From NCBI GenBank assembly GCA_003990745.1, contig RBNI01000663.1:1-28080 (forward strand): a DNA stretch of 28,080 bases. Direction: 5' to 3'. The translations under genes and the position numbers were made by a program. Position 1 is the first letter of the stretch. Every line of letters starts with the position of its first letter. Below, in pieces: positions 3,756 through 22,538 of this stretch. The stretch comes from Jimgerdemannia flammicorona. Taxonomy: Eukaryota; Mucoromycota; Endogonomycetes; Endogonales; Endogonaceae. The notes beneath the pieces were generated by a model that saw nothing but the letters and a program-made list of their open reading frames with translations, was not told the origin of the DNA and searched no databases.

Positions 3756-5572
3756 CTACAATTCTATGCTCACTTCCTCTCCAACCAGATCCAGGTTCTG
3801 TTCCACTGCAATCTCATCCTTGACATTTTGCTATTCATCCAGAGCTGCCAACATTTCCACACAGTCCTCACCATCCACTATCTCCATTGATGCCTGGTGC
3901 TCCTTGCAGATCACCTGCTACTTTTCCAGTCCCTTCCGTGGCCCCAACAGATAAGCTGCCCTCTCATTAGCAATACCTAAGAGTGTTGTCTCCCTCACCT
4001 CGGTGACCTCATACTCCTCTGCCTCCAAAAGAGCTGCAATTATCTCAACTCTCAACTTCCTCACTACCTCCTCTCCTCGCAACACTTGCCCCCAGAATTC
4101 CTCAATAATCACCTGGAAGTCAATCTCTCCCAGTTCCTCAGCCGCCACATTCTGCAGTACCCTAAACAGCCACTTCTCCCCTCCAACTACCTCTGCTGCC
4201 TGCACCAAATCTGCCTCTCCTTCCTTCCTCTCCTCAGTTCGCACAGACTCATCCCAACTATCCTCGGACACATCCTCCAACTCTCCTTCTCCCACCTTGG
4301 AAACACTATAATGGATCGGATTATCATCCTTCATTGCTATATCCCCTACCATCTCCTCCAGCCCCTGTCTCCCACTCTCCTTCGTCTTCCCCCCTTGCTG
4401 CCCAGCCTCTGCCCAGATACTAGCACTCGCCCCAGTGCCCTCCTCCATAGCCCCCGCCCTTTGACCCCCATTCAAACTGGCCAGCAAATCCTTCTGCAGC
4501 TGTCTCTCCTTTGCCTTCTCCCAGAGCATCTTGTTCATTCACACCTTCTTGCCCTCGATCACCTCCACTACTGTCCTAGCCTCGTAAGCCCTCCAAGCCC
4601 TTTGCCTCCTCTCCACAGCCCCCACTAAGTCCTCAAGTGCCTCCAGCAAGTCCTCCTCCTCTTCCTCTGACCCCTTTACCCTCAAAACCTTGCACTCCAC
4701 CAAGCCCCACTTCAATGCCACCAGCCAGTCCCTGGCCTTCTCAGTATTCTCCATCCCAAACAGCCATAGCCAGACATCCACATCACCTGTCCTGAGCTCA
4801 GTCTCCTTCCATACCCTGAACCCAATATCGACCACCTCACTGTACTCCTTCACCACATTTGGGATCAGCCTCCTTGCCTCCTCCTTCTTCACTATTGACA
4901 AGTCCACAATCACCAGATGAACCACACATAGGTCCCAATGCATACACCTCACCATTGGCAATGAAATCCCTCCAACTACACACCCTTCTCCACTGCCTCC
5001 AGTAGCAAACCATCCTCTTCAAACCCCACCTCAACTGCCTCCAGCTTCTTCAAAAACTTAACTGAGACTGCACCTTTCACCTTGCTAGCCAGTAGCCCCA
5101 GCACCATCTTCGCTATTATTACTAAGCCCCAGAAGCACAGTATAATGGCAAATTCTGATCTAGATTTCTTGAGTAATGGGACTGCCACAAGGCCTATCAC
5201 ACCATCAGCCAGGTCCCCAGGTCTCGCACCATTCCCCTGTCCAGGTCTCACATCAGCTGTCACATCTGGATTTTTTTCCAAATTGCCCATCACACCGCTA
5301 TCAGCAGTCACTGCCTCAGCCACTACACCTCCAGCCCCACTATGCTGTCCCCCCAGTGAAGAGGCCTCCTTACCACTCAAGGTAGCAGCCACCTTCCTCA
5401 GCTCCAGCCAGCCATCTAGCCCTGTTGCCTGTTTTCCCATCCTGACTTTATCTGTAAAAGTCATCCTCTCTCCCCCATATGGCCTTGCACCTCCTCTGCC
5501 ACCTCTCCCGGCCCTGCATCCCCTCATCAAAGCACTCAGCATACCAATACCAGCATCTTGACCCCCCCACAC
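3756..5572 (-). pseudogene. LINE-A1 ORF1 (gag-like nucleic-acid-binding protein), broken
   Basis: ORF1 of this family probably binds element RNA; that is a role known for LINE ORF1 proteins, not shown here. Readable pieces align with A2 and A3: MTFTDKVRMGKQATGLDGWL near 5470, then PLLKKSRSEFAIILCF, a central block containing ELRTGDVDVWLWLFGMENT (about 4800-4740), and an acidic C-terminal third. The central block could be an RRM-like fold (alternating hydrophobic strands and a helix), but I cannot confirm it. One frameshift lies near 4960-4976. A TGA at the KKV/M junction (about 4539) splits the C-terminal part off; A2 has the same TGA while A3 has an Arg codon. The reading ends at a TAG near 3756, about 30 bases before ORF2. 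Confidence 0.82.
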
Positions 5573-5690
5573 ATATTGCCAGTCAAAGGCACTAGGGCCC
5601 TCCTGCCCAATATGCTCACCAGAATGTGTGTTGCTTACTATCTTGATAGCACCAATACTTGAAGATGTTGTTGAAAGTATTGTCTGAGTC

Positions 5691-5835
5691 TTGTGTCACC
5701 TGTCACTGGAAGATATCATAATATATATATATTCATATACTTTGGCATAGCTCACATGGTCCTTTTATTACTATATAGGGCTCACTAGTATATCTCAATA
5801 ATGATGGCCCTTTCACCAGTAACATTCAGGTGATA
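5691..5835. other. AT-rich spacer between head-to-head LINE-A copies
   Basis: About 145 bp between the divergent 5' ends of A1 and A2, including an (AT)n stretch at 5711-5722. No gene seen. On each side the LINE 5' regions are recognisable as inverted copies, for example CATTCTGGTGAGCAT-like sequence near 5632-5618 on the minus strand and near 5902-5918 on the plus strand. Confidence 0.6.
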
Positions 5836-5899
5836 CAAACTTCAGATAACACTTTTGACAACATTTTCAAGTATTGGTATTATCAACATAGCAAGCAAC

Positions 5900-7774
5900 A
5901 TGTATTCTGGTGAGCATACTGGGCAGGGGGGCCCCAGTGCCTTTGACTGGCAGCATATGGGGGTGGGTCAAGGTGTGGATATTGGTATGCTGAGTGCTTC
6001 AATGAGGGGACATGAGGCCGGGTGTAGTGGCAGAGGGGGTGCAAGGCCACATAGGGGAGGGAGGATGACCTTTGTGGATAAAGTCAGGATAGGAAAGCAG
6101 GCGACTGGACTAGATGGCTGGCTGGAGCTGGGGAAGGTGTCTGCTACCACAGGTAGCAAGGAGGCCTCTCTACTGGGGAGTCAATGTAGTGGGGCTGAAG
6201 GTGTAGTGGCTGAGGTAGTGATGGCTGATGGCAGTGTAATGGGAAATCTGGAAAAAAATCCAGATGTGATGGCTGATGGTGGACCTGGACAGGGGAGTGG
6301 CGTGAGACCTGGGGACCTGGCTGAAGGTGTGACGGGCCTTGTGGCAGCCCCATTACTCAAAAAATCTAGATCAGAATTTACCATCACACTGTGCTTCTGT
6401 GGCTTGGCAGTGATGGCGAAGATGGTGCTGGGGCTGCTGGCTAGCAAGGTGAAGGGTGTGGCCTCAGTTAAGTTCTTGAAGAAGCTGAAGGCAATCGAGG
6501 TAGGGTTTAAAGAGGAGGGTTTGCTACTGGAGACAGTAGAGAAGGGTGTGGTAGTTAGAGAGATTTTGGTGTCAATGGCAAGATGTATACATTGGGATCC
6601 CTGTGTGGTTCATCTGGTGATTGCAGATATACCGACAGTGAAGAAGGAGGAGGCAAAGAAGCTGGTCACAGATGTGGTGAAGGAGTACAGTGAGGTGATC
6701 AATATTGGGTTCAGGGTATGGGAGGGGACTGAGCTCAGGACAGGAGATGTGGATGTCTGGCTGTGGCTGTTTGGGATGGAGAATACCAGAAAGACTAGAG
6801 ACTGGCTGGTGGCACTGAAGTGGGACCCAGTGGAGTGCAAGGTATCGAGGGTGAAGGGGTCAAAAGAAGATGAGGAGAACCTGCTAAAGGTGCTTGAGGA
6901 CCTAGCAGGGGCTATGAAGAGGAGGCAAAGGGCTTGGAGAGCTTATGAGGATAGGATGGTAGTAGAGGTGATCAAGGGCAAGAAGGTATGAATGGACAAG
7001 GTGCTCTGGAAGAAGGCAAAGGGGAGAAAGCTGCAGAAGGATTTTCTGACCAGTTTGGAGGGGGGTCAGAAGGCAGGGGCTATGGAGGAGGGTGTTGGAG
7101 TGAGTGCTAGCATCTGGACAGAGGCTGGACAGCAAGGGGAGAAGACAAAGGAGAGTGGGAGACAGGAGCTGGAGGAGGTGGTAGTGGACACAGCAATGGT
7201 GAATGATAATCAGATCCAGAATGGTATTCCCAAGGTGGGAGAGGGGGAGTTGGAGGATATATCAGAGGATGGGTGAGATGAGTCTATATGAACTGAGGAG
7301 AGGAAGGAGGGAGAGGCAGATTTGGCACAGGCAGTAGAGATAGTTGGAAGGGAAAAGTGGCTGTTGAGGGTACTGCAAAATGTGGCAGCTGAGGAACTGA
7401 GAGAGATTAATTTCCAGGTGATCAGTGAGGACTTCTGGGGGTGAGTGCTATGACAGGAGGAGGTCATGAGGAAGTTGAGAGATGAGATGATGGCAGCTCT
7501 TCTGAAGGTAGAGGAGTATGAGATTACTGAGGCAAGAGAGGCAACACTCTTGGGTATTGCCAATAAAAGGGCAGCTTATCTGTCGGGGCCATGGAAGGGA
7601 CTGGTAAAGTGGCAGGTGGTGTGCGAGGAGTACCAGGCATCAATGGAGATAGTGGATGGTGAGGACTGTGCGGAATTGTTGGCAGCTCTGGACAAACAGC
7701 AAAATGTGAAAGATGAGATTGTAGCAGAATGTAATCTAGATCTGGCTGGAGAAGAAGTGAGCATGGAATTATAG
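5900..7774 (+). pseudogene. LINE-A2 ORF1, split by stops
   Basis: Reading starts at the ATG 5900-5902 (MYSGEHTGQGG). The same frame is open upstream, but only through non-ATG codons. The N-terminal third is Gly-rich, with MTFVDKVRIGKQATGLDGWL at about 6064-6123. The conserved core runs from PLLKKSRSEF through the GDVDVWLWLFGMENT block at about 6748-6786. A TGA at 6989-6991, immediately before ATGGACAAGG, separates the acidic C-terminal portion, and further stops occur at about 7276, 7288 and 7442. The final part (IANKRAAYLSGPWKGL and a Glu/Asp-rich end) stops at 7774. A3 has Arg at the 6989 position, so CGA-to-TGA decay is the simplest explanation. Confidence 0.83.
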
Positions 7775-7808
7775 ATGTAGAGATATTAACACTTTCAAAT
7801 ACTTTGCT

Positions 7809-8023
7809 ATAAATAGTACAACCAATATTTTTTCTATAAATGTCAATGGGCTTAGGGAGACTGGGAGGTGACATTTGATTTTTGGATGGCTGAAGAAACC
7901 GGAGGCAGATCTCTTTTTACTTCAAGATATATAGTGTAAGGAGGAGGAAGATGGCCTGGAATAGACAAGAGAGTGGGATGGGGTGGCAGTTTGGCAGAGT
8001 AAAGTGGGAATCCTGGTTAGGAA
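7809..8023 (+). pseudogene. LINE-A2 ORF2 5' remnant (endonuclease N-terminus)
   Basis: The sequence matches the start of ORF2 in A1 and A3 (INSTTNIFSINVNGLRE), but the start codon has changed from ATG to ATA at 7809-7811. It keeps the endonuclease Asn motif (NVNGLR) and the degenerate LLQDI region. Stops appear almost at once. It ends where PLE sequence starts at 8024. Confidence 0.75.
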
Positions 8024-8373
8024 GGGTGAAGGTTGTGAGGTTTAAGTAAAGATTTGTGCAAGAAATCGACAGAGTCGAGCAATAGCCATGTTAGATCGCG
8101 GAAATCTTTCGAACATCTCTCGTCAGACTTACTATTGCTTAAATACCTTTCACTTGTCTGCTTCGGACTTAGTAATTGGTTACTGTTTACACAATGTAAT
8201 ACGAATTTAATCATGAACGAGAGTGAATTACTTCTCGGGTTTCACAATCGGATAGCTTTGATCAACTGATCAAATTGCATTAAAATAAAATTTTAATTAA
8301 GTTGTAATTGTATTACTGAGTAATTTTTCTTTTTAAGATTAGGGTCAGGTATGTGCTACTGATTAGAATAAAA
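8024..8373 (-). repeat. PLE 3' terminal direct repeat
   Basis: About 350 bp repeated in direct orientation at 11300-11649, differing only at scattered positions (for example 8047 t/c, 8077 g/a and 8097 c/t relative to the other copy). It begins GGGTGAAGGTTGTGAGG on the plus strand and ends in one partial 83-bp unit with TTAGGGTCAGG. It holds hammerhead motif 1. The copies are less decayed relative to each other than the coding region. Confidence 0.9.
8078..8140 (-). ncRNA. Hammerhead ribozyme motif, type I, copy 1
   Basis: Read on the minus strand: stem I 5' arm AGCAATAG (8139-8132), core CTGACGA (8126-8120), short stem II GAGATGTTC (8119-8111), core GAAA (8110-8107), stem III GAT...ATC with a 7-nt loop (8106-8094), then T-A (8093-8092) as U16.1 and the cleavage base A17. 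The stem I 3' arm CTATTGCT (8085-8078) is fully complementary to the 5' arm. Cleavage is predicted after 8092. All invariant core bases (CUGANGA, GAA, A15.1-U16.1, H17) are present. Short stem III is typical of PLE hammerheads. Activity not tested. Confidence 0.82.
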
Positions 8374-8436
8374 CACACATTGCACAGTGCAGGAAAAGGA
8401 AAGATGCAGTGTAATTTTTATGACCAGTCATGTTTA

Positions 8437-11259
8437 TTACAGGGGCATTTTGCCCACTATAGATAACACCTTCTTGTTCTGCTTCTCAACTAGCTTCTTT
8501 AAGTTGAGACTATGATAAATAACTGGACTGTACTTCATAGGGCAGTGTTGAGACAGAGTATTCATCACTCTGATAGCCAAAGATAATGCACGATGATGGT
8601 AATGATTACTGGAATAATTGTGCATATATGGCATAATATTTATCTCACCAAGCTTGGAGCCAGATTCTTTATTATTTGCATGAGAATCCTCCGAAAGTAT
8701 ATGGGAGCGGTCTTGATAAGATTCAAGACTCAAAAGGTAAGTGATCTGATTTGGTTTAAAGGTACGTTATACCAAAAACTGACAGAATTCGGAGATCGCT
8801 ACTTCATAATTATCATATTCTGATGAGTTCCGGATAAGGCGAGTATTCTCACCTCTAAGCCATCCATCAATGTATGCTTGTGGATAATACGTATCCGGCA
8901 TAGAATATATATGAAGATTTATATCTTTATCATAGTTTCAGAACTGAATTGACTGAGTCTTATCAGTATTGATCTTCACATATGCTTTGAGATCGCAAAA
9001 TGTAACTTTATCAGCTATATGTTGTGTGAAGTACAAACTAGAGCTTATTATTTCCAACGATGTTATAAAGTGCTTTGTAGCTTCGTCACCCTTGTCCGTA
9101 ATAATAATGATGTCATCGATGAATCAGAAGTAAAGTTCCGGCAAAATTCCTTGATCTTCAAACCTAAGTTTGTGAAAGGCCATAAAGAGATTTGCTATAT
9201 TGGGAGCCAAAGGCATACCCATTACAATTTCTCGAATTTGTTGATTGGTATGCCCGGCATATTGAATATACGCAAACTTAAGTATAAAGTACAATACCTT
9301 CATATAATATCAGTGGGTATGTTCTCTGGAATGATCAAATCGCATAAGAACCACAAATATTTTCCATAGACACTCGTCGATGTTAATGTTGGTATACATA
9401 GACTCGATGTCTACTGATAGTAACGTCACGGATCTGGAAAAGAACTTTTCTTCAATATGATTAATTACATATTTGGAGTCTGGAGCTACCATTCGATACA
9501 TAGAAATATATGGTTTCAGATAGGCATCTACAGCTCTCGAATTATCGCTAGTAATCCAGCTATGGTTTGGAGAGATGGGTCATGACTTAACAGGATTTTT
9601 GTAAAGTTTCGGTAGAATATAGAATTCTGAAATCTTGCATTTTGCAAGAGAAGCTTGCCATAACTTTACCTGTTTGAGGGCCAAATGCAAGACATTTTTG
9701 TCAAGCTTTTTGGCTTCATTAATCAATAATATGAGAGATGTATTCACCTCAGTGGAATTGAAAGGTTTCTCGACAAACGTTGACATGTCAGTGAGGTGAC
9801 TCAATACTTGTGAGTCATACCAATCATAATCCATAAGTGTAAGACCAAGTCCATTATTAGCTTCATGAACAATAAGGAGATTATTTCACATAAAGTCATG
9901 AAGATGTTTGATGGTGCACAAGTAGCAGTTATGAGGATTTATTTTATTTGCTTTGCCAAAATGGCGTACAAAATTACTCTCTGCAACATGAAGACCAAAA
10001 TCAGCTTGAGTAATCAAGCCTTTGTCTCAGCCTTGTTCTTTTACCCCTTCGAGGACTTCTTGACAGATAGAATGCCAGGTTTGGCAGGCCTGTTTAATGT
10101 CAAGACGAGTGCGAAAATTGAAGTTAAGACCTTTGTTTAACAAATCAACAATGTCACTCAGGATTTCGGAGACATGAGAAATATTATTCACAAAAATATT
10201 CTGATTAGGAATATTACGGAAACTTACTGTTTCCCATCTTTCGAACCAGATTTCTCTAGTCCTCCTTTGCCTTTGGTTGTGGTGTCTTTCACCTTCTTCG
10301 GCAAGTCCTTTTTTGGAGGTGGCTTCTTGTACAGCACGGCTGTCACCGACACTTTCGATTTGGCCTTCCCTTTCACAGGGCCCGTTACCTTCAGCTTGTT
10401 TGTCAGCTTTGCATTTTCCTTTATCTAAAGACAAGGGAATGTGAGTATCAAGCCAGATAGAAAGTAATTTGATTGGTTTGAAAACCATATCAACGTGGAC
10501 ATGCAGTGTAGTCACTCTTACTTTTTTCTCCGGGGCCAAAATGACCTCGACATACATGTTGTGCAATTTGTTAGCGAATTCGCTAACAGTATGCTCTAGG
10601 TGTGCTTTAGCAAGCTGATAATACCCATTGTCCTCCCTGAACACCATTAGCTTAGGTTCTAATTCTCCCTGAAGGGAGGTGACCAGGCTATTGAGTTCGG
10701 AGTTGCACTCCTTCCAAACTTGTTATTTGGACGTAATGATAGCCACCTTAACTTCTAAGGCAATAACATCACGGATACACTTAACAGATCCCTCTGGAAG
10801 AGAGACATTTCTTACTGAGAAGTTGTAATATTTTCCAGGGTCTTCCTTCTCCCCCGCTGCTGTAAGGTAAACTGCTTTCTTGCGTTGATCAATTAAGATC
10901 GCTGCCCATGCTGTATAGTGTTTGACATAGTCGACCAGGGGCAGTTCTTTTGTTGGAACTGTAGAGAGGCCTTGGCCACCAAAGTTGGGAATAGCGAGGG
11001 CCATGAATGGAGTACTCTTGGGTGGTTGCCCGAGAAATTCCTCATGAACCGCAGCATGAACTGCGGCCATATCCTCAGTGTGCATCTCAGCATCTTCGAC
11101 AATCTCGTCAAGAGATGTAAACTGGAGAGCCATTTGGGCCGCATGAGACGACCTGCTGGACATATCAGGATTGATGGTAGGGGCGTAATTCCCCAATGCT
11201 TGCTATTGAGCAAGGATGGCAGAGGTGAGGTTGGAGTGAGAGTTGTTATCATTCGACAT
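8437..11259 (-). pseudogene. PLE reverse transcriptase polyprotein, EN-deficient, with stops
   Basis: One frame from ATG 11259 (MSNDNNSHSN) to the stop at 8437, about 940 codons, with about eight stops and no obvious frameshift. The N-terminal ~370 residues have no domain I recognise. From about 10130 the PLE pattern appears: LLNKGLNFNF, then FGLHVAESNF, FYILPKLYKNP (about 9620-9590), a motif A Asp in LLSVDIESMYTNI (about 9412-9374), motif B IVMGMPLAPNIANL (about 9230-9185) and motif C FIDDIIII (about 9120-9100). A thumb-like GWLRGENTRLIRNSS follows near 8860. The remaining ~110 residues end in KVLSIVGKMPL with no GIY, YIG or Cys-rich linker. The catalytic Asp residues are intact; stops such as the one before FIDD inactivate it. 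Confidence 0.85.
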
Positions 11260-11649: not shown

Positions 11650-12118
11650 TTTAATTAAGTTGTAATTATATTACTGAGTGATTTTTCTTTTTAAGATTAG
11701 GGTCAGGCGTGTGCTACCGATTAGAATAAAATTTTAATTAAGTTGTAATTGTATTACTGAGCGATTTTTCTTTTTAAGATTAGGGTCAGACACATGCTAC
11801 CAATTAGAATAAAATTTTAATTAAGTTGTAATTGTATTACTGAGCAATTTTTCTTTTTAAGATTAGGGTCAGGCATGTGCTCCCGATTAGAATAAAATTT
11901 TAATTAAGTTGTAATTGTATTACTAAGCGATTTTTCTTTTTAAGATTAGGGTCAGACGCATGCTACCGATTAGAATAAAATTTTAATTAAGTTGTAATTA
12001 TATTACTGAGCAATTTTTCTTTTTAAGATTAGGGTCAGGTGCATGCTACTGATTAGAATAAAATTTTAATTAAGTTGTAATTATATTACTGAGCGATTTT
12101 TTTTTTTAAGATTAGGGT
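11567..12118. repeat. 83-bp tandem array, about 7 units, each with a telomere-like hexamer
   Basis: The unit starts GATTAGAATAAAATTTTAAT and ends TTAGGGTCAGG plus about 12 variable bases. Starts at 11636, 11719, 11802, 11885, 11968 and 12051 give an exact 83-bp period, and a partial unit precedes them. TTAGGGTCAG occurs at 11697, 11780, 11863, 11946, 12029 and 12112 (11615 has lost one G). It forms the outer 5' part of the PLE; the 3' terminal repeat has only about one unit. Confidence 0.92.
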
Positions 12119-12134
12119 CAGGGTTAGGGTTAGG
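12112..12134 (+). repeat. Interstitial telomere-like repeat at the PLE / LINE-B2 junction
   Basis: TTAGGG, TCA, then GGGTTAGGGTTAGG on the plus strand. The last array unit's TTAGGGTCAGG runs directly into it, and LINE-B2 antisense sequence (CTTCAAGTAAG) starts at 12135. TTAGGG is the telomere repeat of most fungi. Its G-strand reads left to right. Confidence 0.85.
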
Positions 12135-12811
12135 CTTCAAGTAAGAATTTATTCGTTGTAGAGAAGAAAGAGTACATTGGAGTAACAAAAAACAAAGACT
12201 CCTAAGATGAGAAAAACAGAACAAGGCCAGCGAAGTAAACAACTAGCTAAGGAGTACAAGACAAGGCCAGAGAGGTGACCACCCTATGGACGGGCTGGAT
12301 AAAACCATTTTGTCATGGCCATAGAGATAATAAATGCAAAAAAGCAAAGAAAAGATGGGCTAAGATATAGTACACATTCGCCTGGTGCCAACTACAGGAC
12401 CGTATTGACAACCAAACACCAAATGACTGACATGAGATGAATAACTTAATGCATTCTCAACAACAAGGGAACCAACCAGGCATATGAGGGGAGAAAAAGG
12501 GATAAAGAAAATGTGTGATCACTCGATCACCCAAGCATCTTCGTAATCTTGGCCAGGTAGAACCCGACCACAAGATGGCCACCAGAATTACATATATCGT
12601 CTATAGTATGATAGGCTGTCTCGTGAAGAGTGTGAAGAGGGTAGGCGCGAAGTTCCTCCTGCCATTCATCATTGGTAAACTAATCAAGTTGTTCATCTCA
12701 ATCGGAAGAACCTTGGAACGCAGAGTACAAATCATTGAGAAGACCGCACCTGAGGAGATGGCCATAATGAAACTTATCTCCATAGGGGCAGGGGCGGGGT
12801 TAGCCAAAGTA
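12135..12811 (-). mobile_element. LINE-B2, 3' terminal 677 bp of a LINE-B element
   Basis: Aligns over its whole length with 18613-19289 of LINE-B1, with no net length change. It comprises the 3' UTR (12135-12526) and the C-terminal ORF2 coding sequence. Similarity ends at 12811, exactly one base before the MULE terminal inverted repeat. The corresponding upstream part of LINE-B is not found on the other side of the MULE. Its 3' end is fused to TTAGGG repeats. Confidence 0.88.
12527..12811 (-). pseudogene. LINE-B2 ORF2 C-terminal fragment
   Basis: Ends at a TGA (12529-12527), the same stop position as LINE-B1 ORF2. The zinc-knuckle-like motif reads Cys-Pro-Tyr-Gly...His...His...Cys, where B1 has Cys-Pro-Cys-Gly; the second Cys codon TGT has become TAT. 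The plus-strand open frame over the same bases is its antisense shadow. Confidence 0.75.
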
Positions 12812-12848
12812 GGGGGTTGTCTATAGAATATTGCAGTCATGTGGAGGT
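12812..12848 (+). repeat. MULE left terminal inverted repeat
   Basis: Starts GGGGGTTGTCTATAG and matches the reverse complement of 18382-18346 at 31 of 37 positions by hand alignment; the first 15 bases are identical. Five of the six mismatches are transitions. Confidence 0.85.
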
Positions 12849-13008
12849 GAGCTATGCTAAATTTAATATTAGTATCTATTTTTACTATCTAATTAAGGTC
12901 TCAAAATTCCTCTGAAACATCATCAAGAGTGGGAAAAAAAAAAATTACCTTCCTCCAACCTCTCCACACACCTTTATCAACCACCATACCAGCATTACTC
13001 AATCACTT

Positions 13009-15008
13009 ATGGAGCAAACTCATACACATTTTTTTAATGTAGAGGAGCCATTTGAAATTGCCGCTGAGGAATTCAAGAGTATTTGGCCTCATGTATCAAA
13101 CATATGGTCTATCATACGCAGAAATAAACCTCAAGATACAGATCATTCAGAGATATATATTTGCCGCCTGAACAAATGCTCTAAATCCAGCACATGCCAA
13201 GAGGTTATAGATGGAAAACGATGCAAGACTAGGATTCGCGATAGTGATCAGTGTTTTGCAAAAATGAAGATTACTCATCTTATGTAGACTCAGATGGTTC
13301 ATGTTGAGTGCTATGACAACAGCCCTGACCATACACATACACTGACAGAATGTAATATGCTAAAATACTCAGAGTCAATCAGAAATCTTATTGCGAATGA
13401 AGCTACAAAACTCTATTATCTACCAGACATCAGAAATACTATCAAGGATCTCATGAGCAAAACATTTGGAGAAGGATCAGGTATTGAGTATTTACATCAA
13501 AAGGAGGTTAGCAATATGCAATCAAAGTTGCGAGAACCTATTACAGCACACCTTATTGGAAGTACAAAATACATTATTGATAATCAACAAACAATTATCT
13601 ATCTGGAGTCGCAACATTATCATGTTCAGCAATTTATTCTTAATCTGACGGCATCTAGCTCATCTACATCAAACTTATCAATGGACTCACCACCACCATG
13701 ACAAGGCTTCAGCTTCGCCAGGCCTGAGCAGCTATAAAAACTTACAAAGTATGAATGATTAACACTTATTGACTCTACTCACAACACCAATAAATAGAAG
13801 TGACATCTGTTCACCTTATATATTCGTGATGGTGTTGGATGCTGGGATGTCGGTGGTCATATCTTTATTAGTAATGAAGACAGTTTAATAGTTGCAGAAG
13901 GCTTAAAAGTAATTCGGCACATGGCAACAATATGGCAGCCTTGATACATACTCTCTGATCAAAGCAATGTTGAGATGAATAGTATTGTAGTTGTATTCCC
14001 TGGTCTTCATAGCAGTGAACAGGAATGTGAAGTTCTTCTTTGCACCATATATACAATGCATACATAGATGCAGAAAATTTGGGATACTTCAACATGATCC
14101 AAGATGATCCTTGCAATGTACAAACATACACAGATTGGTTGTGATGCCATCATACAGGAGGCAATTAGAAGTTGTATAGTTCAGGATGTTACTCGATATA
14201 TAAGTAGAAATTATCAAAATACCAAGAAATAGGTACTGTGAGCATGACAACACTCACCTCTACTACTTCAAGTAACATCAACAAATGCACTGGAGTTATA
14301 CCATAGTGAGTTGAAATCAGTAACTTCTATTACCCATTGATTAATTGGTAAGAGATTCCTTTTCCACCTGCTCTCTTTTTTTTTTTAAAAAAAAAAAGAA
14401 TACTTATTAGTATCTATATTTTGACAATAGGTGCCGCCAACAAAATTGTTGAAGTTGACTACAAGAAGTATGTCACTGCTGAAAAGGTCGCTTTCACCTT
14501 CAGGACAAGCAAGATTTCACTAGCTAACATACCTGATAATAACTTGAAGGAAATACACAAGTTCCCATATCCAATCCAGCAGCTGATCGGCAATGAAGCT
14601 CTTGCTGTAATAACACAGCTGGAGAAAGGAAAGGCGCCTCCAGGTCTCGTTACAGCAGAATGTCATTGCAAGTTTTTCATACAGTACCTTATACCATGCT
14701 GTCATATTTTTCATGAGCATATATATGGAGCAACCAAGATACTCACTGCTGAAAAATGGGACACTTTCCAGCAAATATTTGCTGAGAGCAGATTCGAGAT
14801 TTACCAGAGCTGGGAGAGGGTTGAGATCGAGGAGATTTAGGCAGATATTAGACAGAAAGCAAATGCTCACCAAGGAAGGTTGAATGAGGTACTTGAGAGG
14901 ACTTGGGATCGATACTGGAGGATTGAGGAGGACGGAAATGCTGAGCAGGCTGACAACTTTGTTGAGGGTTTAGAGGTCGCTTTTGAACAAATTTTTAGGC
15001 AACAATAA
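13009..15008 (+). pseudogene. MULE transposase (zinc finger, DDE, SWIM), one intron, premature stops
   Basis: Cut-and-paste transposase, readable in one frame from ATG 13009 to the intron at 14348-14430, then in the spliced frame to TAA 15006-15008. N-terminal Cys/His finger: CRLNKCSKSSTC, then HVECYDNSPDHTHTL (about 13300-13340). The DDE domain has LIDSTHNTNK (Asp codon 13771-13773), LYIRDGVGCWDVGGHIFISN, LSDQSNVEMNSI (Asp codon 13957-13959) and FPGLHSSEQECEVLLCTI. After the intron come the SWIM zinc motif CHC...PCCH (about 14661-14708) and FHEHIYGATK. About a dozen stops are seen, mostly where Trp or Arg is expected (KYE*LTLID, NK*K*HLF, QP*YIL), plus a TAG at 14838-14840 before the final ~55 residues. 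Frame integrity with only transition-type stops indicates recent death. Confidence 0.9.
14348..14430 (+). other. Spliceosomal intron in MULE transposase, with T11A11 palindrome
   Basis: GTAAGA donor at 14348 and ACAATAG acceptor ending at 14430. Splicing joins ...LIG to AANKIV in the correct frame; without it the frame closes. Inside lies a perfect 22-bp palindrome, eleven T then eleven A (14376-14397). Confidence 0.8.
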
Positions 15009-15543
15009 TATATTTTATATGTATTTTCATATGTTGTAAGCATTGTAGTTTGGAAAAATGTATAGATATTTGTCATTTGTTAGCTTTACCAAAATATTGT
15101 TCAGTGGAATGAAGACCATGTGGCCCACTTGTTATTCTCACATGTACTAGTTAATCAGCTGAACAGGACAGGGCAACCATTAAACTATGAATAGTATATG
15201 CTTCAAGAAAGGGCCCTCTTTTTTTTTTTTTTTTTTTTTTTTTTATTCTCTACCTACCCGCTGCCTTATTCACTTTAGTGAGCTTAGACTCCAGATCCGT
15301 CATGCTTATTCACTGCCCAGTGCACATATTTACAAATCGTCAGTATTCTGATCACAGTCTCATACATCTCACCACAACGCAAAATACAAACCCTCACCTA
15401 ATAATCGTAGTCCCACTACACCCTAGTCAGATTCTCCTATGATTGCTTAATCTTGCACATCAAGTGCACAATCTTCTCCCCAATGTTCACCAGTACAGGA
15501 TGCTGTATGTAGGAGGGAATTTTATTAGTGAAAGGAAATTTCG

Positions 15544-15579
<36 letters not shown>

Positions 15580-15719
15580 GGTGGGAGAGGGGGGGGGGCT
15601 AGTATATATAAAAACAGATAGCACTGAGAAGTACGAGAAGGAGAGATTAGCAAAAAGATTAAGCCACCAGTGGGTAAGGATTGTGATTGACATACTAAAG
15701 AATAAAAAAAGTTAAAAAA
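15009..15719. other. Non-coding MULE interior with long homopolymers
   Basis: No gene recognised. Contains a 26-base T run (15219-15244) and a 33-base A run (15544-15576) followed by G-rich sequence. Open frames that read through the A run (poly-Lys or poly-Phe) are artefacts of the homopolymer. Run lengths may be unreliable in the assembly. Confidence 0.7.
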
Positions 15720-15756
15720 ATTAAGACTAAACTCACCCGCCCACTCAAACTGTGAA

Positions 15757-16794
15757 CTAGTGCTTGGCCATGAAGCTGTTGCTGAGTGCTGGGTGGAGCG
15801 ACATGTATGAGAGGAAGTACTTGAGCTCGCAATAGCACTTCTCGATGAAGGGCCTACAACCTTCTTGGGCGGTAGTTTTGGTAGCCCTGTCTTGAAGTGT
15901 AGGTAATGCTTAACCAGTAGGGCCCGCAATGCAACGAAGTCTGAGTAGCGCTTACATACACTAACCGAGGCGCCTGACCCTCTGCGCACAGTGCACATAT
16001 ATACAATATAGCTCCCATACCCGACGCCAACCCTAAGTGGGTTGGAGATAGAGACCTCTTCATGAAGGGGGCTCTGGAAGAAGAGTATTTGGTGCCGATA
16101 GACTCAGACTCATGGGACGATGTGAAGGAATGTGACGAGATGGATGACGACAATGAGGCGAAGGTCAAAGATGAGGCACATGGATACAGTACCTCCAAGG
16201 AAACCGAGCATGAGTCAAATGTAGGAGTGTAGTCATAGGCAAAGGGGGTGGTGGGTACAATCCCCCTTCTTCTTTCAAACAAATCATCATCAACATCATC
16301 AAAATCTAGTAGTAGTGAGTACAAACTGAAATTCGACCCCCTCCTCACATGTTTCCTTGTTCTAGCCCTGCCCAATGACACCAGGGTTCCAGGCCTTGGC
16401 CATCAGTATTTTCTCCATGATGGTCTCTATGCTAGAGTTGTTCCTGCCCCGCATGTGGTAGAACCCGGCCGCTATTCTGACTGGAGGGAAATCAATCTCC
16501 TCCTCTATGGTCATGCTTGTTGTCTGAGTCCAAGTCATGGCTCAGGTAGAGTTGAGGGTTGTTGTTGCTCATCCACATATTGGTATTGACAGAGGGCGAC
16601 GAGAATGAGAACAGGCTAGAATAGTACCTGCTGAGGAAACTCTCATTTGGGAGCGACGATGAGAGTGGGGATAGCTCATTCCATGATCTGGGCATGAAGG
16701 GCTCACTTTCGGGGGAGGAGGTCGCTAGAGGTGATGGAGAGCAGAGAGGACAGAGGTTGCTACTATTGGGCGAAGGCCGAGTGATGCGAGCTCA
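15757..16794 (-). pseudogene. PX-domain protein gene fragment inside the MULE
   Basis: PX domains bind phosphoinositides on endosomal and vacuolar membranes. The domain reads on the minus strand from about 16058: VSISNPLRVGVGYGSYIVYM, then the signature KRYSDFVALRALL, then GLPKLPPKKVVG. A one-base deletion near 15850-15855 shifts the frame, after which PFIEKCYCELKYFLSYMSLH and PALSNSFMAKH complete the domain to a TAG at 15757-15759. A second shift lies near 16060 (APFM / EEVSI). Upstream to about 16794 is Ser/Pro-rich coding-like sequence in shifting frames (MPRSWNELSPLSSSLPNESF at 16695-16636; EEEIDFPPVRIAAGFYHM near 16500). The spacing resembles fungal Ypt35-type PX proteins; that subfamily call is tentative. 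It runs opposite to the transposase. Confidence 0.78.
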
Positions 16795-17302
16795 CATAGG
16801 ATGAGTAGTCTTGCAAGTGGTACAGGTCTGTGTTACTAATTGTGTTATGGCTATATTCGATTTGATTTGCTCGATAGGTGGTGGACGGTGCATGTGCATC
16901 AGGGAGTTGGGAGAGTGTTTGCCAGATTTGTCGTCATTGGCGACTTGCAATGCTTTTCTGAGTGCAGATTGCAGCCTATCTATAGTGTCCTGTACATAGT
17001 CGGCCCATACCTTGGGCTCCTGGTCATAGGACTCGTCATCCATTTTGCCCCGAATCTCAACCAGGTCCTTGATGGCAGTCCTGAGTTCATGGCAGCACTC
17101 AAGCACAGCCAGGCAGTGCGACGCAAGCTCCACATCCCGGCCCAGCTTGGACAGATCAAGGTCGTCAGCTGTGGTGGCAGTGTAGACGATCTGGTCACAC
17201 TGGCAAGTTTTGGAGGCCACAAGCATAGGCTCTAAGGAGTGCCGACAGGTGTACCTCGTCTCTTAAGTATAGGAGTTCCACCTGGTCTTTTCGATATGGC
17301 CA
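16795..17302 (-). pseudogene. Unrecognised ORF inside the MULE, predicted helical
   Basis: I do not recognise this protein. An open stretch of about 145 codons (17226-16792) has a balanced composition and amphipathic helical character, with LDLSKLGRDVELASHCLAVL, then CCHELRTAIKDLVE and VWADYVQDTIDRLQSALRKA. This looks coding, unlike the neighbouring minisatellite. Upstream, ATG 17302 opens a short Pro/Gly/Thr-rich frame (MAISKRPGGTPILKRRGTPV) that ends at a TAG; a shift or intron would be needed to join the two (AG at 17264-17263 minus is a possible acceptor). The last ~45 codons look less coding and may be intron or captured junction. Probably another host-gene piece; it could belong to the PX gene's 5' end, since the frames are in phase across the stop at 16792. 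Confidence 0.45.
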
Positions 17303-17334
17303 TAGCTTCTAGTTTCAGCAAGTTACAAGGATTT

Positions 17335-18025
17335 CAAGGTAAGACAGGCGACACGGGCAAGATGCCAAAATGGGCAAAATGGGCAAGAGCAGAGCAATAC
17401 AGGCAATATGGGCAACATGGACAACATGGGCAATACGGGAAGATAGCAAGATGGCAAGATGGCAAGACGGGCGACGCAAGCAAGATGGGCAATGGGCAAT
17501 GGGCAACATGGGCAACACGGGCAACACGGGCAATACGGGCAAGATGGGAAGACGGTAAGACAGCAAGAAGACGAGATGGGCAATGCGGGCAAGATGGGCA
17601 AAACGGGCAAAATGGGCATGAACAAAGCAACACGGGCAATACGGACAACACGGGCAACACAGCAAGACGGCAAGATGGCAAGACAGCAAGACAGGCAACA
17701 TGGGCACGATGGGCAAAATGGGCAAACAGGCATAAGCAGAGCAACACGGACAACACGAGTAACATGGGCAACATGGGCAACACGGGCAAGATGGGAAGAT
17801 AGCAAGACAGCAAGAAGGCAAGACAGGCAATGCGGGCAAGATGGGCAATGGGCAAGATGGGCAACACAGGCAACATGGCAACATGGGCAACATGGCAAGA
17901 TGGGCAAGATGGCAAGATGGCAAGATGAGCAAGATGGCAAGATGGCAAGATGGCAAGACGGCAAGATGGCAAGACAGCAAGATAGCAAGATGGCAAGATG
18001 GTAAGACAGCAAGACGGGCAACACG
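17335..18025. repeat. Minisatellite of 9-bp-type units (GGGCAAYAC / GGCAAGATG)
   Basis: About 690 bp of short imperfect units such as GGGCAACAC, GGGCAATAC, GGGCAAGAT and GGCAAGATG, drifting between 8 and 10 bp. Higher-order blocks recur, for example GGGCAATGGGCAA at 17487 and 17845. Stops are rare in every frame, so several long overlapping open frames appear on both strands (Cys/Pro/Leu-rich on minus, Gly/Gln/Trp-rich on plus). These are low-complexity artefacts. It lies directly against the SMC1 fragment. Confidence 0.9.
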
Positions 18026-18049
18026 GGGGTCCTCCTGCCTGGAACCGCT

Positions 18050-18302
18050 GCAGTAGATGAGATCCTTGAGCTGAGCAGAGCAGAGGTGAGTGGACTTGAT
18101 GCCAAGGACAAATGAGATGGCATCTATAAGATTGGATTTTCCTGAAGGGTTACATGTGTAAGTCTGGGTTACATTTTCAGTGAAAGACTAACGCACCTGC
18201 TCCATTAGGGCCGATGATGCATGTAAACTTGTGAAAAGGGCCGATGACCTAGTGGCCCTTGTAAGACTTGAATTCGTAGTAGATCTTTCTCACGTATGGC
18301 AT
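18050..18302 (-). pseudogene. smc1: SMC1 (cohesin subunit) N-terminal fragment inside the MULE
   Basis: SMC1 is an ATPase of the cohesin ring. Exon 1 runs from ATG 18302 to 18197: MPYVRKIYYEFKSYKGH, a TAG where SMC1 proteins have Gln (CAG to TAG), then VIGPFHKFTCIIGPNGAG. Exon 2 (18141 to about 18050) reads KSNLIDAISFVLGIKSTHL, then CSAQLKDLIY. The Walker A GPNGAGKSN is split by a 55-nt intron between Gly and Lys and restored by splicing. The FKSYKG...IGPF...QLKDLIY spacing identifies SMC1 over other SMC proteins. Only ~70 of ~1,200 residues are present; homology stops as the minisatellite begins. The ATG is 80 bp from the MULE right terminus, so transcription from that end could run into it. 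It cannot supply SMC1 function. Confidence 0.88.
18142..18196 (-). other. Intron within the SMC1 fragment (splits Walker A)
   Basis: 55 nt, GTGCGT donor (18196-18191) and CCCTTCAG acceptor (ending 18142). Splicing gives GCA-GGA-AAA-TCC (Ala-Gly-Lys-Ser). Its presence shows the fragment came from genomic DNA or unspliced RNA, not processed mRNA. Confidence 0.85.
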
Positions 18303-18345
18303 GTCAACATTGGTATATGTTATTATTTTCTAAAAATACACCCCG

Positions 18346-18382
18346 ACCTCCGTGTGACTGTGATATGCTATAGACAACCCCC
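18346..18382 (-). repeat. MULE right terminal inverted repeat
   Basis: Reverse complement starts GGGGGTTGTCTATAG and pairs with 12812-12848 as described there. Beyond about 37 bp the similarity ends. Confidence 0.85.
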
Positions 18383-18594
18383 GAAATAAGTAGAGGTGTG
18401 TTTGTTTGTATTTGTAAAATTGTGAAATGTGAGTTATGTGACCTTTGTTAGTGCAATGAAAAAATAATTATTAAGGGGATATTTTTACCCAATGGGAGGC
18501 CTAGCTAATCAAAGTGACTGCTTTCTTAATATGGAATAGCTTCGGGCCATAAAGGCGAGTCTAGCCAAAAGGGGAAATCACGTGAGTGGCTCAG
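18383..18594. other. Unassigned AT-rich segment between MULE and LINE-B1
   Basis: About 210 bp with no gene recognised and no similarity to LINE-B sequence, although the left MULE flank is LINE-B. It leads into telomere-like repeats at 18595. Confidence 0.6.
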
Positions 18595-18612
18595 TTTAGG
18601 GTTAGAGTTAGG
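18595..18612 (+). repeat. Degenerate telomere-like repeat at LINE-B1 3' end
   Basis: TTTAGGGTTAGAGTTAGG, three hexamer-like units with two departures from TTAGGG, reading G-strand on plus. LINE-B1 antisense sequence CTTCAAGTAAG follows at 18613, the same junction as at 12134/12135. Confidence 0.78.
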
Positions 18613-19004
18613 CTTCAAGTAAGAATTTATTCATTATAGAGAAGACAAGATATATCAGAGCAACAAAAGACAAAGACTCCTAAGATGAGAAAAGCAAAAA
18701 AGGCCAGCGAAGTAAACAACTAGCTAAGAAGTATAAGACAAAGGCCAGAGAGGTGACCACCCTATGGACGGGCTGGATAAAACCATTTTGTCATGGCTGT
18801 AAAGATAATAAATGCAAAAAGCAAAAAGGAGAAGAGCTAAGATAAAATACACAATCGTCCAGCGCCAACTACATGAACCGTATCGACAACCAAACACCAA
18901 ACGACTGACATGAGATGAATAACTCAATGTACTCTCAATAACGGAGAACCAACCGGGGCAAACGAGGGGAAAGAAAGAAATAAAGAAAATGTGCGATCGC
19001 TCGA

Positions 19005-22000
19005 TCACCCAAGCATCTTTGTAATCTCGGCCAGGCAGAACCCGACCACGAGATGGCCACCAGAATTACACATAGCTTCTATAGCGTGGTAGGCAGTCTC
19101 GTGAAGAGCGTGAAGAGGGTAGGCGCGAAGTTCCTCCTGCCATTTGTTATTGGTAAACCAATCGAGTTGTTCATCTCGATCGGAAGAACCTCGGAACGTG
19201 GAATAGGAACCGTCGAGAAGACCGCACCTGAGAAGATGGCCACTATGAAACTTATCTCCACAGGGGCAGGGGCGGGGTTGGCCAAAGTAGCTGTAGCGCC
19301 AGGCGAGTACAGAACGCACAAGCCGGGAAGGGAAGGAGAGGACATGATCGGTGCCCCTTGACCGCAAGCGGCCTTTGGGGGTGATGTACTGAACGAGAGC
19401 CTGGGAAGAGGAAGCTCATTCCTGCAGCAACTGATCCTGAAGGAAGGACTGGAGAAAGGAGCGGAGCGAGCGAGTCTTGCGGACCTGGGGATGAAGGTCC
19501 CAGTACCAGTCGAAGAAGTCAAGCCAAGAGGTCTATCGCCGGAACTTGTCAATAATAGAACCTGGTGGACGCGTGACAAAGCGCTTGCTAAGGGGGCCAA
19601 TGGGGTTGTTGCCGGACTTGCCACACCAATCCAGATAGGCTTGGAACATGCAGCAGAGGTCAGACATACGATGAAGGAAGGAAGGGAGACCAAGAATCAA
19701 GCTGCCAAGCAGGGGATGGCCAGAAAATCCAACCACCCAAGCAACAGCATCATCAAAGACCTTCTCGGGACGCTTCAACACCTAAAGCCCTGTGGTAGTA
19801 GCCGGGGAGGAAGCTCATAGGAGGGGAAGGCCATATTCTAGCTGAGGCCTAATGAACGTTTGTACGATGGCCAACTTGACCATTGGCGACCAGAGGGGAC
19901 CACGAGCATGGCAGAACCCTAGAGTTCATTCCGCCTTCGCCACATTCTGCAACGTAAGTTCGGCAAAGTCGAACCCTTTGTAGGTATATGGCATGCCCAG
20001 GTACACATAGGAGGGGGGTCACGGGCAGGGTTCACCCCCAATCCACACGGTACAGTTAGCAGGGCCGACATAACTGCACTTCTTGGGATTGAGCTCCATA
20101 CCGTTCACCAGAAGCCAATCCTCACAAAAGTCAATCATCCTTTGGCCCTCCGCGGAAGTGTGGGGGATAAGGGCAATATCGTCAGCAAAGAAGAGCCTGA
20201 GGGGAAAGTCGTACTCCTTGAACTGTTTATCAAAAGAGGCAGCGAGGGGATCAATAAAGATGTCAAAAAGCCAGGGGGAGAGGAGAGAGCCTTGGAAAAG
20301 GCCACGGTCAGTTGGGACTGAAGGGGTAACGAGGCCATTAACAACCACCTGATAAGAACAGTGATTGAACAGGCTTCAGATAATGCTAAGGAGGGCTGCA
20401 TCAGCACCTCGCGCCTCAAGACGAGAAAGAATAAGCTTGAGGGGGACTCAATCGTATGCCTGCTGGAGGTCAAGAAAGACATGGCAGCCCCATCCCTTGG
20501 CCCATGTTTCGTGCAAAAGCAAGACATGGGAGAGGGACGAGACGCGGGTTCGGAAGCCGCCTTGGCAGCTCGACATTTCTGTCAGGCCACTTCAGCTCTG
20601 GATGTATCCTTCCAAACATCGCTCGAAGAGTCTACGAAACATTTCGGTCAGAGCAATAGGGCGAAATCCATCAATCGTCCTCGAATCCTCCTTCTTGGGG
20701 ATCAGGGTGATAATGGTGGAGTTTCAGCGACGGGGAGTGAGCCCCCAGACAACGCACATCTGGAAGAAGAAGGACAAGGCTTTGGAGAGGCTACAGAGAG
20801 TATCAGCCTCGCCCGCCATCACCCAAAGGATCCGGACGTGCAGGGAGTCGGCCCCACAGGCCTTCGAGAGGGGGTAGCTGCGGATAGCCCTCCAAACTGC
20901 TGGCTGGTCAAACCAACCCTGCTGTTCAAGAGCACTCACACCAAGGGGGAAGACATCCTCAGAGTCATTGAGGTGGAGAGAGACGTCCGGTTGGCCAAAG
21001 ATAGTGGTGAAGTAAGCAACCATGTCGTCGAACACTGGAATAGCGGGGGATCAAGATTGGAGGAGAGCGAGGGGGGTGGAGCGGTATGCACACTTAAAAC
21101 CACGGATAGCATCCGAGACCGAGGATGCATTTCGAAGAAGGTCCCGTCGGGGGAGCGGCACAGCCCTGATTTCTCTTGCGTCATATGAGCCAAGAATGTC
21201 CTCACAAACTGACTGTAGACCAGAGGTCAAAAGGGCGTCCAGAGAATCAATGAATTGCTGGCAATCTTCCACAGAGCGAAAGCCAGCCACATGATCCCAG
21301 ACAGAGTAGATGGATCTGACAACAGTATCGCAGACGATATCTGCTGATTCCCGAAGGTGCGCTTGAATGACCGGATCAGCCAGATATCTCGCAGAGTAAT
21401 GGCGGACACCAGCCAAAGCGGCAACCGGTGAGGGGGAGAAGGGGAAGGAAACGGTAAGGAGAGAGGGGTGGTCGGTAGCGACAGGGGGGGTGGAGCAAGT
21501 GAGGGATGCATGGAGGGATGCGGTGGCAAATGCATGGTCAACGCATGTAGAACCAGCCACCGGGGTCAAGTGATTCAATGACCACGTCATCAGGGAGGTA
21601 TCGACAACATCCATCTGATCACGAGGACCAGAGTTGACATCACCAAGGTGGGCACCAAACCGAGTGTTGATCTCACCGATCAAAAGCGCCTTACCTGGAA
21701 AGGGACCAGACACGAGGTCTCGGAAACCACCAATGGGAAGAGAGGGGGGGGCGTAAACCCCGACCAACGCCAGGCCCTGGAACATGAGCCAGATATGGAA
21801 GGGGTCGGCGGAGGACCTGGAAATAAGGGGGGCGAAACGGTTTGACACAAGGACCACGAGCCCATCATTCTGGTGGCCCACGATCCTGTGCGACGCTGGA
21901 GGAGAGGACATGTGAATGAGTGGAGAGGGATGCAGCGGAATGTGCCACGTTTCACATACGAAAAGAATGTCGAGGGCAGGACCAATCAACCAACTAAGCA

Positions 22001-22052
22001 CATTGAACTTGTCCTGGGGTAGTCTGTGTGCATTGAGGAACCCGACTCTCAT
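19005..22052 (-). pseudogene. LINE-B1 ORF2: APE endonuclease + RT + zinc knuckle, about 10 stops, no frameshift
   Basis: One uninterrupted phase of 1,015 codons from ATG 22052 to TGA 19007-19005. Endonuclease, residues ~1-220: FLNAHRLPQ, CETW, YAPP, LLIGEINTRFGA (usual GDFN Asp is Glu), DHAFA and TDHPSL. RT from ~340: KACGADSLH, STIITLIPKKEDSRTIDGFR, VFLDLQQAYD, RGLFQGSLLSPWLFD and FADDIAL with both Asp codons intact (20183-20178). The C-terminus has CPCGDKFHSGHLLRC. In-frame stops include 21051, 20724, 20592, 20448, 20376, 20019 and 19416 (all TGA) and two TAG. Several sit where Arg (QQAYD*V) or Trp (RR*NSTIITL) is expected, so they are G:C-to-A:T changes. Reverting these would give a complete frame, so death is recent. 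Confidence 0.9.
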
Positions 22053-22471
22053 TGTGGGCCAGGCGTGTTAGCGCCAACAGCGTGAGAAGCATCTGAAGCA
22101 GAAGCCTCGGCTTCCAAATCCATCACCATGTCACTAGTCACGGCCACAGTACCACCTGCCTTCGAAGCAGGGCCGGCCGTCGGGGAGGTGAAGGAGGGGA
22201 GAGTAAGGCCGAGTTCCGTGGCCCAAGCTCTGTAGAAGGTCTGCATCTCAGGCCTCTTCACAGTGGCATCGCCGGCCAACTGTCGGACCCAAGCATGGAA
22301 GAATTGGAGTACCCGTGCTTTCACGGCCTCCATGGCGTTCTTGTTTCGTGGGAGCGCGGGGTCCCAGGCCATCAGCACCGAGAACCTGAGTGCCTTCATC
22401 TTCTTTTGGAATGCCGTGACATAATCAGGGCGGAGAAGAAATTCGATGGTTGATACCGAGACATACGACAT
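22049..22471 (-). CDS. LINE-B1 ORF1 C-terminal part, overlapping ORF2 by ATGA
   Basis: Open from ATG 22471 (MSYVSVSTIEFLLRPDYVTA), about 140 codons; the same frame is open a little further upstream through 22510. No zinc knuckle or RRM is visible. A helical region (KARVLQFFHAWVRQLAG) is followed by a low-complexity Ala/Ser/Glu tail. Its TGA (22051-22049) overlaps the ORF2 ATG (22052-22050) as ATGA, which suggests ORF2 translation by termination-reinitiation. The length is short for a LINE ORF1, so the 5' part is probably lost at the LINE-A3 junction. No stops in what remains. Confidence 0.65.
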   Translation of the reverse strand: MSYVSVSTIEFLLRPDYVTAFQKKMKALRFSVLMAWDPALPRNKNAMEAVKARVLQFFHAWVRQLAGDATVKRPEMQTFYRAWATELGLTLPSFTSPTAGPASKAGGTVAVTSDMVMDLEAEASASDASHAVGANTPGPQ

Positions 22472-22538
22472 GTTGAGAACTTTTAACAACATCACATGGA
22501 CGTCATACAAGTTCTTCTGGACCAGAGAACAACGAGCA

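Follow-up and report, generated by a model that had tools for sequence, protein, structure and literature searches.

In the strict sense, Pack-MULEs are non-autonomous Mutator-like elements (MULEs) that have no transposase, as far as the available text defines them (PMC8903248), and KI-MULE is described as a MULE that duplicated a protease (PMC8277862). Among fungi, gene capture by DNA transposons is already known, from hAT elements that transduplicated histone H3 in Pyrenophora and Pseudocercospora (PMC3538342, PMC6710886) and from Helitrons (PMC4289320); for fungal MULEs it is hardly documented. The literature searched, with most subscription journals outside it, gave no example of a MULE from a fungus that encloses pieces of host genes. 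Within the Mucoromycota, MULEs of Rhizophagus irregularis adjoin expanded genes, according to proximity statistics and gene trees in the part of the report at hand (PMC8647823), and a MULE-Mucorales group is summarized as having target-site duplications of 10 bp, terminal inverted repeats of 40 bp and a SWIM finger (PMC6446971).

The window, the whole stretch of 28,080 nucleotides analysed here, is contig C663 and was compared with 134.8 Mb of assembly in 7,754 contigs, apparently those above ~10 kb. It comes from Jimgerdemannia flammicorona, a fungus of the Mucoromycota, order Endogonales. We consider that the window probably holds a degenerate, once transposase-bearing MULE that had taken up host DNA past its transposase gene and before its right terminus. 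The preliminary description had proposed a transposase-bearing, gene-capturing MULE of the Pack-MULE kind. Host fragments and a decayed transposase do lie between the ends, and the SMC1 fragments have a source elsewhere, on contig C4628; the strict Pack-MULE label fails on the transposase pseudogene, and the element is a gene-carrying, transposase-bearing MULE rather than a strict Pack-MULE. Its features are as follows.

12115..12811, plus strand: left flank, a fragment of a ~5.15-kb non-LTR-type repeat, reaching repeat position 2409 (L002 numbering).
12812-18382, 5,571 bp: whole element, with the transposase on the plus strand and the cargo genes on the minus strand.
12812..12848, plus strand: left terminal inverted repeat, pairing 31/37 with the right end; homology of the flanking repeat ends here in 6/7 copies.
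13006..15008, plus strand: MULE transposase pseudogene, with an intron at ~14335-14429 and 13 in-frame stops; 54-60% identity by tblastn with C2710/C34.
15067..15236, minus strand: SMC1 piece 3, an intron and the start of a hinge exon; parent L065 7988-8157, 77-78% identity, K2P (homopolymer tracts included) 0.395.
15258..15576, minus strand: SMC1 piece 2, a T-tract intron, an exon, the next intron and an exon; parent L065 6735-7042, 82-83% identity, K2P (homopolymer tracts included) 0.237.
15740..17203, minus strand: broken YPT35-like gene with a PX domain (PF00787), corresponding to protein P0001 from residue 31 through that domain.
17204..18027, strand not given: one copy, truncated, of a dispersed minisatellite repeat whose 117-bp start is conserved.
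18027..18302, minus strand: SMC1 piece 1, partial 5'UTR, remaining exon 1, intron 1 and partial exon 2; parent L065 ~5200-5566, BLAST identity 72%, K2P (homopolymer tracts included) 0.24; its outer end, ~30 bp past the BLAST match, was set from the alignment with C577.
18303..18345, strand not given: right subterminal stretch, common to C577 and missing from the SMC1 parent.
18346..18382, minus strand: right terminal inverted repeat, pairing 31/37 with the left end and resembling the ends of compact MULEs in the same genome.
18383..22521, plus strand: right flank, the ~5.15-kb non-LTR-type repeat again, beginning at repeat position ~1501 (L002 numbering), with a minus-strand RVT_1 match at 20022-20348.

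Like plant Pack-MULEs and Pack-TYPE elements, the element contains unlinked host pieces between MULE ends, keeps introns and forms a patchwork from several sources; strict Pack-TYPE elements, as the accessible text describes them, have no transposase, whereas the window element has a dead one, no target-site duplication and a fungal host (PMC8903248, PMC8277862). With KI-MULE it shares the host-derived gene within a MULE, but that cargo is a protease in plants, so far as the available account goes, and the cargo here consists of SMC1 and YPT35-like fragments that are not open. KI-MULE type elements can keep a transposase. The hAT elements with histone H3 are likewise fungal DNA transposons with a transposase and a captured housekeeping gene, RIP-mutated in the Pseudocercospora copies; they differ, in the sections at hand, in being hAT and not MULE, in their tens or hundreds of copies, in their ascomycete hosts and in the intronless H3 of Pseudocercospora (PMC3538342, PMC6710886). 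No hAT domain occurs among the Pfam matches of the scanned stretches of the window, which has MULE and SWIM domains instead. MULEs of R. irregularis are similarly Mucoromycota MULEs tied to gene movement, and the best listed relatives of the window transposase are in arbuscular mycorrhizal fungi; the evidence there, as accessible, consists of proximity statistics and gene trees, whereas here gene pieces lie within paired ends and a parent is named (PMC8647823). The MULE-Mucorales group is alike in its Mucoromycota hosts, similar end length and SWIM finger, a likeness by summary description, and differs from the window element in its target-site duplication.

The termini pair at 31 of 37 nucleotides (84%) with the first 15 identical, exactly as first described, and under the same seeded scan the whole window, shuffled 100 times by dinucleotides, gave no pair above 26/37. 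Elsewhere in the real window there are inverted pairs of up to 37/37, the best of them joining inverted LINE copies that lie at 3860-7670, outside the element; inside 12812-18382 the terminal pair is the only one of at least 27 apart from its own shifted registers. These ends coincide with the boundaries of the flanking dispersed repeat. Repeat homology ends at 12812 in six of the seven aligned copies, the seventh (L010) ending already at 12406, and begins at 18381-18385 in all seven, while none of 39 further listed copies matches left of 18381. Scored against the local terminal family, the right end reaches 50 and the left end 27, compared with a mean of 25 and a maximum of 35 for interior shuffles (200 mononucleotide shuffles). 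A closer right terminus, which would have left the cargo outside the element, was sought in 14900-18345, and none scored above shuffles. Allowing one mismatch, the terminal 15-mer has 31 matches, including the window's own two ends, and its reversed control has 14.

The two flanks map 909 bp apart and overlap within the repeat unit (positions 2409 and 1501, L002 numbering). They are not alike and derive from separate positions of the repeat, and the 8-11 bp target-site duplication expected of a MULE, which the preliminary description had named as part of a proof of mobility, is absent at the element; transposase and terminal inverted repeats, the other two hallmarks, are present. A single clean insertion is excluded by the overlapping flanks. 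Since the flanks overlap by ~909 bp of the unit and no target-site duplication exists, either loss of ~4.2 kb of a tandem unit at insertion or recombination between copies is required.

Domain analysis bore out the reported MULE transposase pseudogene. PF10551 matches at 13762-14010 with 33.8 bits (cut-off 27.6) and has three stops within it, and a SWIM finger at ~14613-14708 scores at its cut-off; by these two features the transposase is assigned to the MULE type. Judged from its sequence, it is dead, with 13 in-frame stops in the 634 codons aligned to relatives. A profile search for the family found 20 other PF10551 matches in the assembly, and a protein search with a query joined from the relatives on C2710 and C34 returned 153 proteins; the named best matches among the 120 listed belong to arbuscular mycorrhizal fungi. 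The relative on C34 is a compact MULE bounded by ends at positions 603 and 4043 of L078; its right end lies ~185 bp past the transposase stop, and inspection by eye shows no target-site duplication. On C3602, a terminus lies ~170 bp past the C-terminal match of the transposase. Given that this compact relative on C34 ends ~185 bp after the transposase stop, the cargo in the window is extra. It measures ~3.2 kb, and its genes run opposite to the transposase, as had been noted.

Six loci have ends reading GGGGGTTGTCTAAAG; four of them (L039, L040, L041 and L044) adjoin transposase fragments by tblastn, L045 does so by blastn and L048 by neither. At nine such terminus-bearing loci, nine ORFs were scanned for captured genes and gave no Pfam match. 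A PRP16 match at L044 was considered as a captured gene and set aside; it is apparently an ordinary host gene adjoining a MULE remnant, and a second end was not found. On C4069, a MULE remnant lies upstream of a PRP16-like gene.

The window contains three intron-bearing SMC1 pieces, colinear with the 5' half of the parental gene. That parent, which the preliminary description had recommended searching for, is intact on C4628 (locus L065), in an ordinary place without MULE ends, and is annotated as P0046, a 1395-aa 'cohesin complex subunit psm1 [Jimgerdemannia flammicorona]'. SMC1 is a ring protein by which sister chromosomes are kept together. The reported SMC1 N-terminus proved right as to the gene and wrong as to the start: what was taken for the N-terminal start belongs to the 5'UTR, a 37-bp deletion in the window copy covers the site of the parental start codon, and the pieces at 15067-15236 and 15258-15576 had been overlooked. 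Retention of SMC1 introns indicates a copy made at the DNA level.

SMC1 sequence was found in three places only in the assembly, on C4628, C663 and C577. The copy on C577 has a right terminus with one mismatch to the transition-tolerant pattern, and shares with the window the subterminal stretch and the transition from there into the SMC1 5'UTR. The terminus-SMC1 junction thus exists twice. SMC1 exons on C577 continue to parental position 6346, a part missing from the window, and 234 of the 281 differences from parental SMC1 are C-to-T or G-to-A. No transposase match was found at C577. As a left end for that copy, the best plus-strand match (61, shuffle maximum 55) was rejected, as it lies in AT-rich DNA in the wrong orientation. 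Terminus-like sequence is also present on C7383 and C1983, where the loci examined have no SMC1 or transposase matches, so the terminus is not simply SMC1 upstream DNA.

The C577 junction bears on the idea that an ordinary MULE inserted beside an existing SMC1 pseudogene and that the right inverted end is a coincidence. Broken repeats abound in the genome, and host genes can have MULE remnants beside them, as with the PRP16-like gene on C4069; yet the right end fits the terminal family of the genome's MULEs, is attached to SMC1 again at C577 and coincides exactly with the edge of the flanking repeat. Repeat boundaries and the C577 junction largely refute this explanation, which we regard as very improbable. 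An assembly chimera is equally hard to credit. Although the assembly is fragmented into short contigs (7,754) with dense repeats, a mis-join would neither give paired ends at both repeat boundaries nor repeat the terminus-SMC1 junction on C577.

The best alternative, possible though unlikely in our estimate, is a fusion of two MULEs, one a transposase element minus its right end and the other a neighbouring SMC1-carrying, non-autonomous element of the C577 type minus its left end; a deletion, or recombination of copies lying in adjoining repeat units, would have joined them. In a model outlined in the accessible part of PMC8903248, a fused MULE pair can later move as one. Such a fusion would agree with the missing target-site duplication and with flanks from two positions of a repeat that occurs in tandem at other places; the left end resembles the terminal family far less than the right end does, and C577 has SMC1 at a terminus with no transposase. 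On the other hand, no internal terminus remnant rises above shuffles between the transposase and the right end, and the outer ends still pair at 31/37.

Taken together, the compact relatives, the known parent of SMC1 and the junction shared with C577 speak for capture of SMC1 DNA between the transposase and the right end. Against this capture stand the missing target-site duplication, the overlapping flanks, the left-end score of only 27 and the C577 copy, with neither a transposase match nor a convincing left end. The complete composite was found only once, and C577 has only the right end with SMC1; movement of the whole as one unit is at most conjectural. Several copies of the same junctions had been named as part of a proof of mobility; that between right end and SMC1 is common to C663 and C577, and to these only, and the PX/transposase and SMC1/minisatellite junctions, like all others, occur once each. 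Nor was the cargo found in the same order elsewhere in the assembly, as it might have at an ordinary host locus.

Under the capture model, repair or replication would have changed over to SMC1 as template during breakage or movement of the element, in line with the gap-filling or fork-switching proposed for plant and animal Pack elements in the available text of PMC8277862. The ancestor may have contained at least parental 5208-6346 and, if a single event was involved, ~3 kb reaching to 8157. Later, parental 5567-6734 would have given way in the window copy to the cut minisatellite repeat and most of a YPT35-like gene, and parental 7043-7987 would also have been lost, leaving dead cargo with no evident function. 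If the capture reading is true, MULEs captured host genes in the Mucoromycota as well as in plants, where such capture is best documented. This phylum has large genomes and MULE-rich mycorrhizal relatives, in which gene-family growth has so far been linked by proximity, according to the accessible report (PMC8647823). The termini, the SMC1 parent and the junction common to two loci provide concrete means to count such captures in other genomes.

The remaining cargo includes the reported PX-domain gene, whose PF00787 match is above its cut-off. An ORF listed separately as unrecognised turned out to be the N-terminal part of this same YPT35-like gene. The read-through of 17203-15740 (406 residues) matches P0001, a J. 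flammicorona protein of 548 aa encoded on a 4,650-nt contig, with E 2.6e-128; tblastn of P0001 gives 68% over residues 31-261 and is colinear down to 15852. In the protein search, 45 of 3,791 candidates passed. A search for a parental PX gene had been recommended, but neither a parent nor a second copy of the YPT35 piece was found in the searched assembly by DNA or protein, and one of the eight matches of the PX family search is the window's own.

Two insertions of P0001, 11 residues within the PX domain and ~40 after KKVVG, are missing from the window copy. Nine other aligned homologues lack both or end there, P0012 ending at the first, and the two insertions look like unspliced introns. One MULE might therefore combine two cargo routes, SMC1 as intron-bearing genomic DNA and YPT35 as a spliced, RNA-derived copy, a reading that we hold to be rather doubtful. 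P0001 lacks a stretch present in both the window and P0012, which makes its gene model imprecise and the case for a spliced source only moderate. Were the two-route reading true, repair of a cut-and-paste transposon in an early-diverging fungus would have used both chromosomal DNA and cDNA. The minisatellite noted earlier was confirmed as a truncated copy of a dispersed repeat; at the other loci shown, homology of this family extends further out, and the window copy starts abruptly beside the YPT35 piece.

The minisatellite inside the element (window 17204-18027) is a member of a dispersed family in which a start of 117 bp is conserved, and the family is found at about 39 further loci (39 others among 40 scored). 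In the related MULE transposases on contigs C2710 (L077) and C34 (L078), a long minisatellite-like stretch, in part open in frame, lies at an intron position that in the window's transposase holds only about 95 bp. On another contig (C4069:1-2404; L044, L089), a gene for a PRP16-like splicing helicase has a MULE terminus and a transposase remnant immediately upstream. A second family of terminus-like sequence, GGGGGTGGTCTATAGCATCACGGTG, occurs at L023, L029, L032 and L047, and no transposase match was found within the sequence of these four loci.

On C577, the second contig joining the right terminus to SMC1, positions 7968-9768 (L053) form an AT-rich island with RIP-like changes. The share of sites at which parental C is replaced by T is 76-84% for CpG, 52-66% for CpA, 40-53% for CpC and 18-23% for CpT. 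For a member of the Mucoromycota, mutation of this RIP-like kind would be unusual.

The reverse-transcriptase repeat flanking the element on the right was located as follows.

Occurrences of the ~5.15-kb reverse-transcriptase repeat
Window 18384-22521
Contigs C1393, C810, C5302 and C4807

In several contigs this repeat forms tandem arrays with a spacing of 4.8-5.2 kb, as exemplified by C1393, with copies at 6648, 11410, 16550 and 21715.
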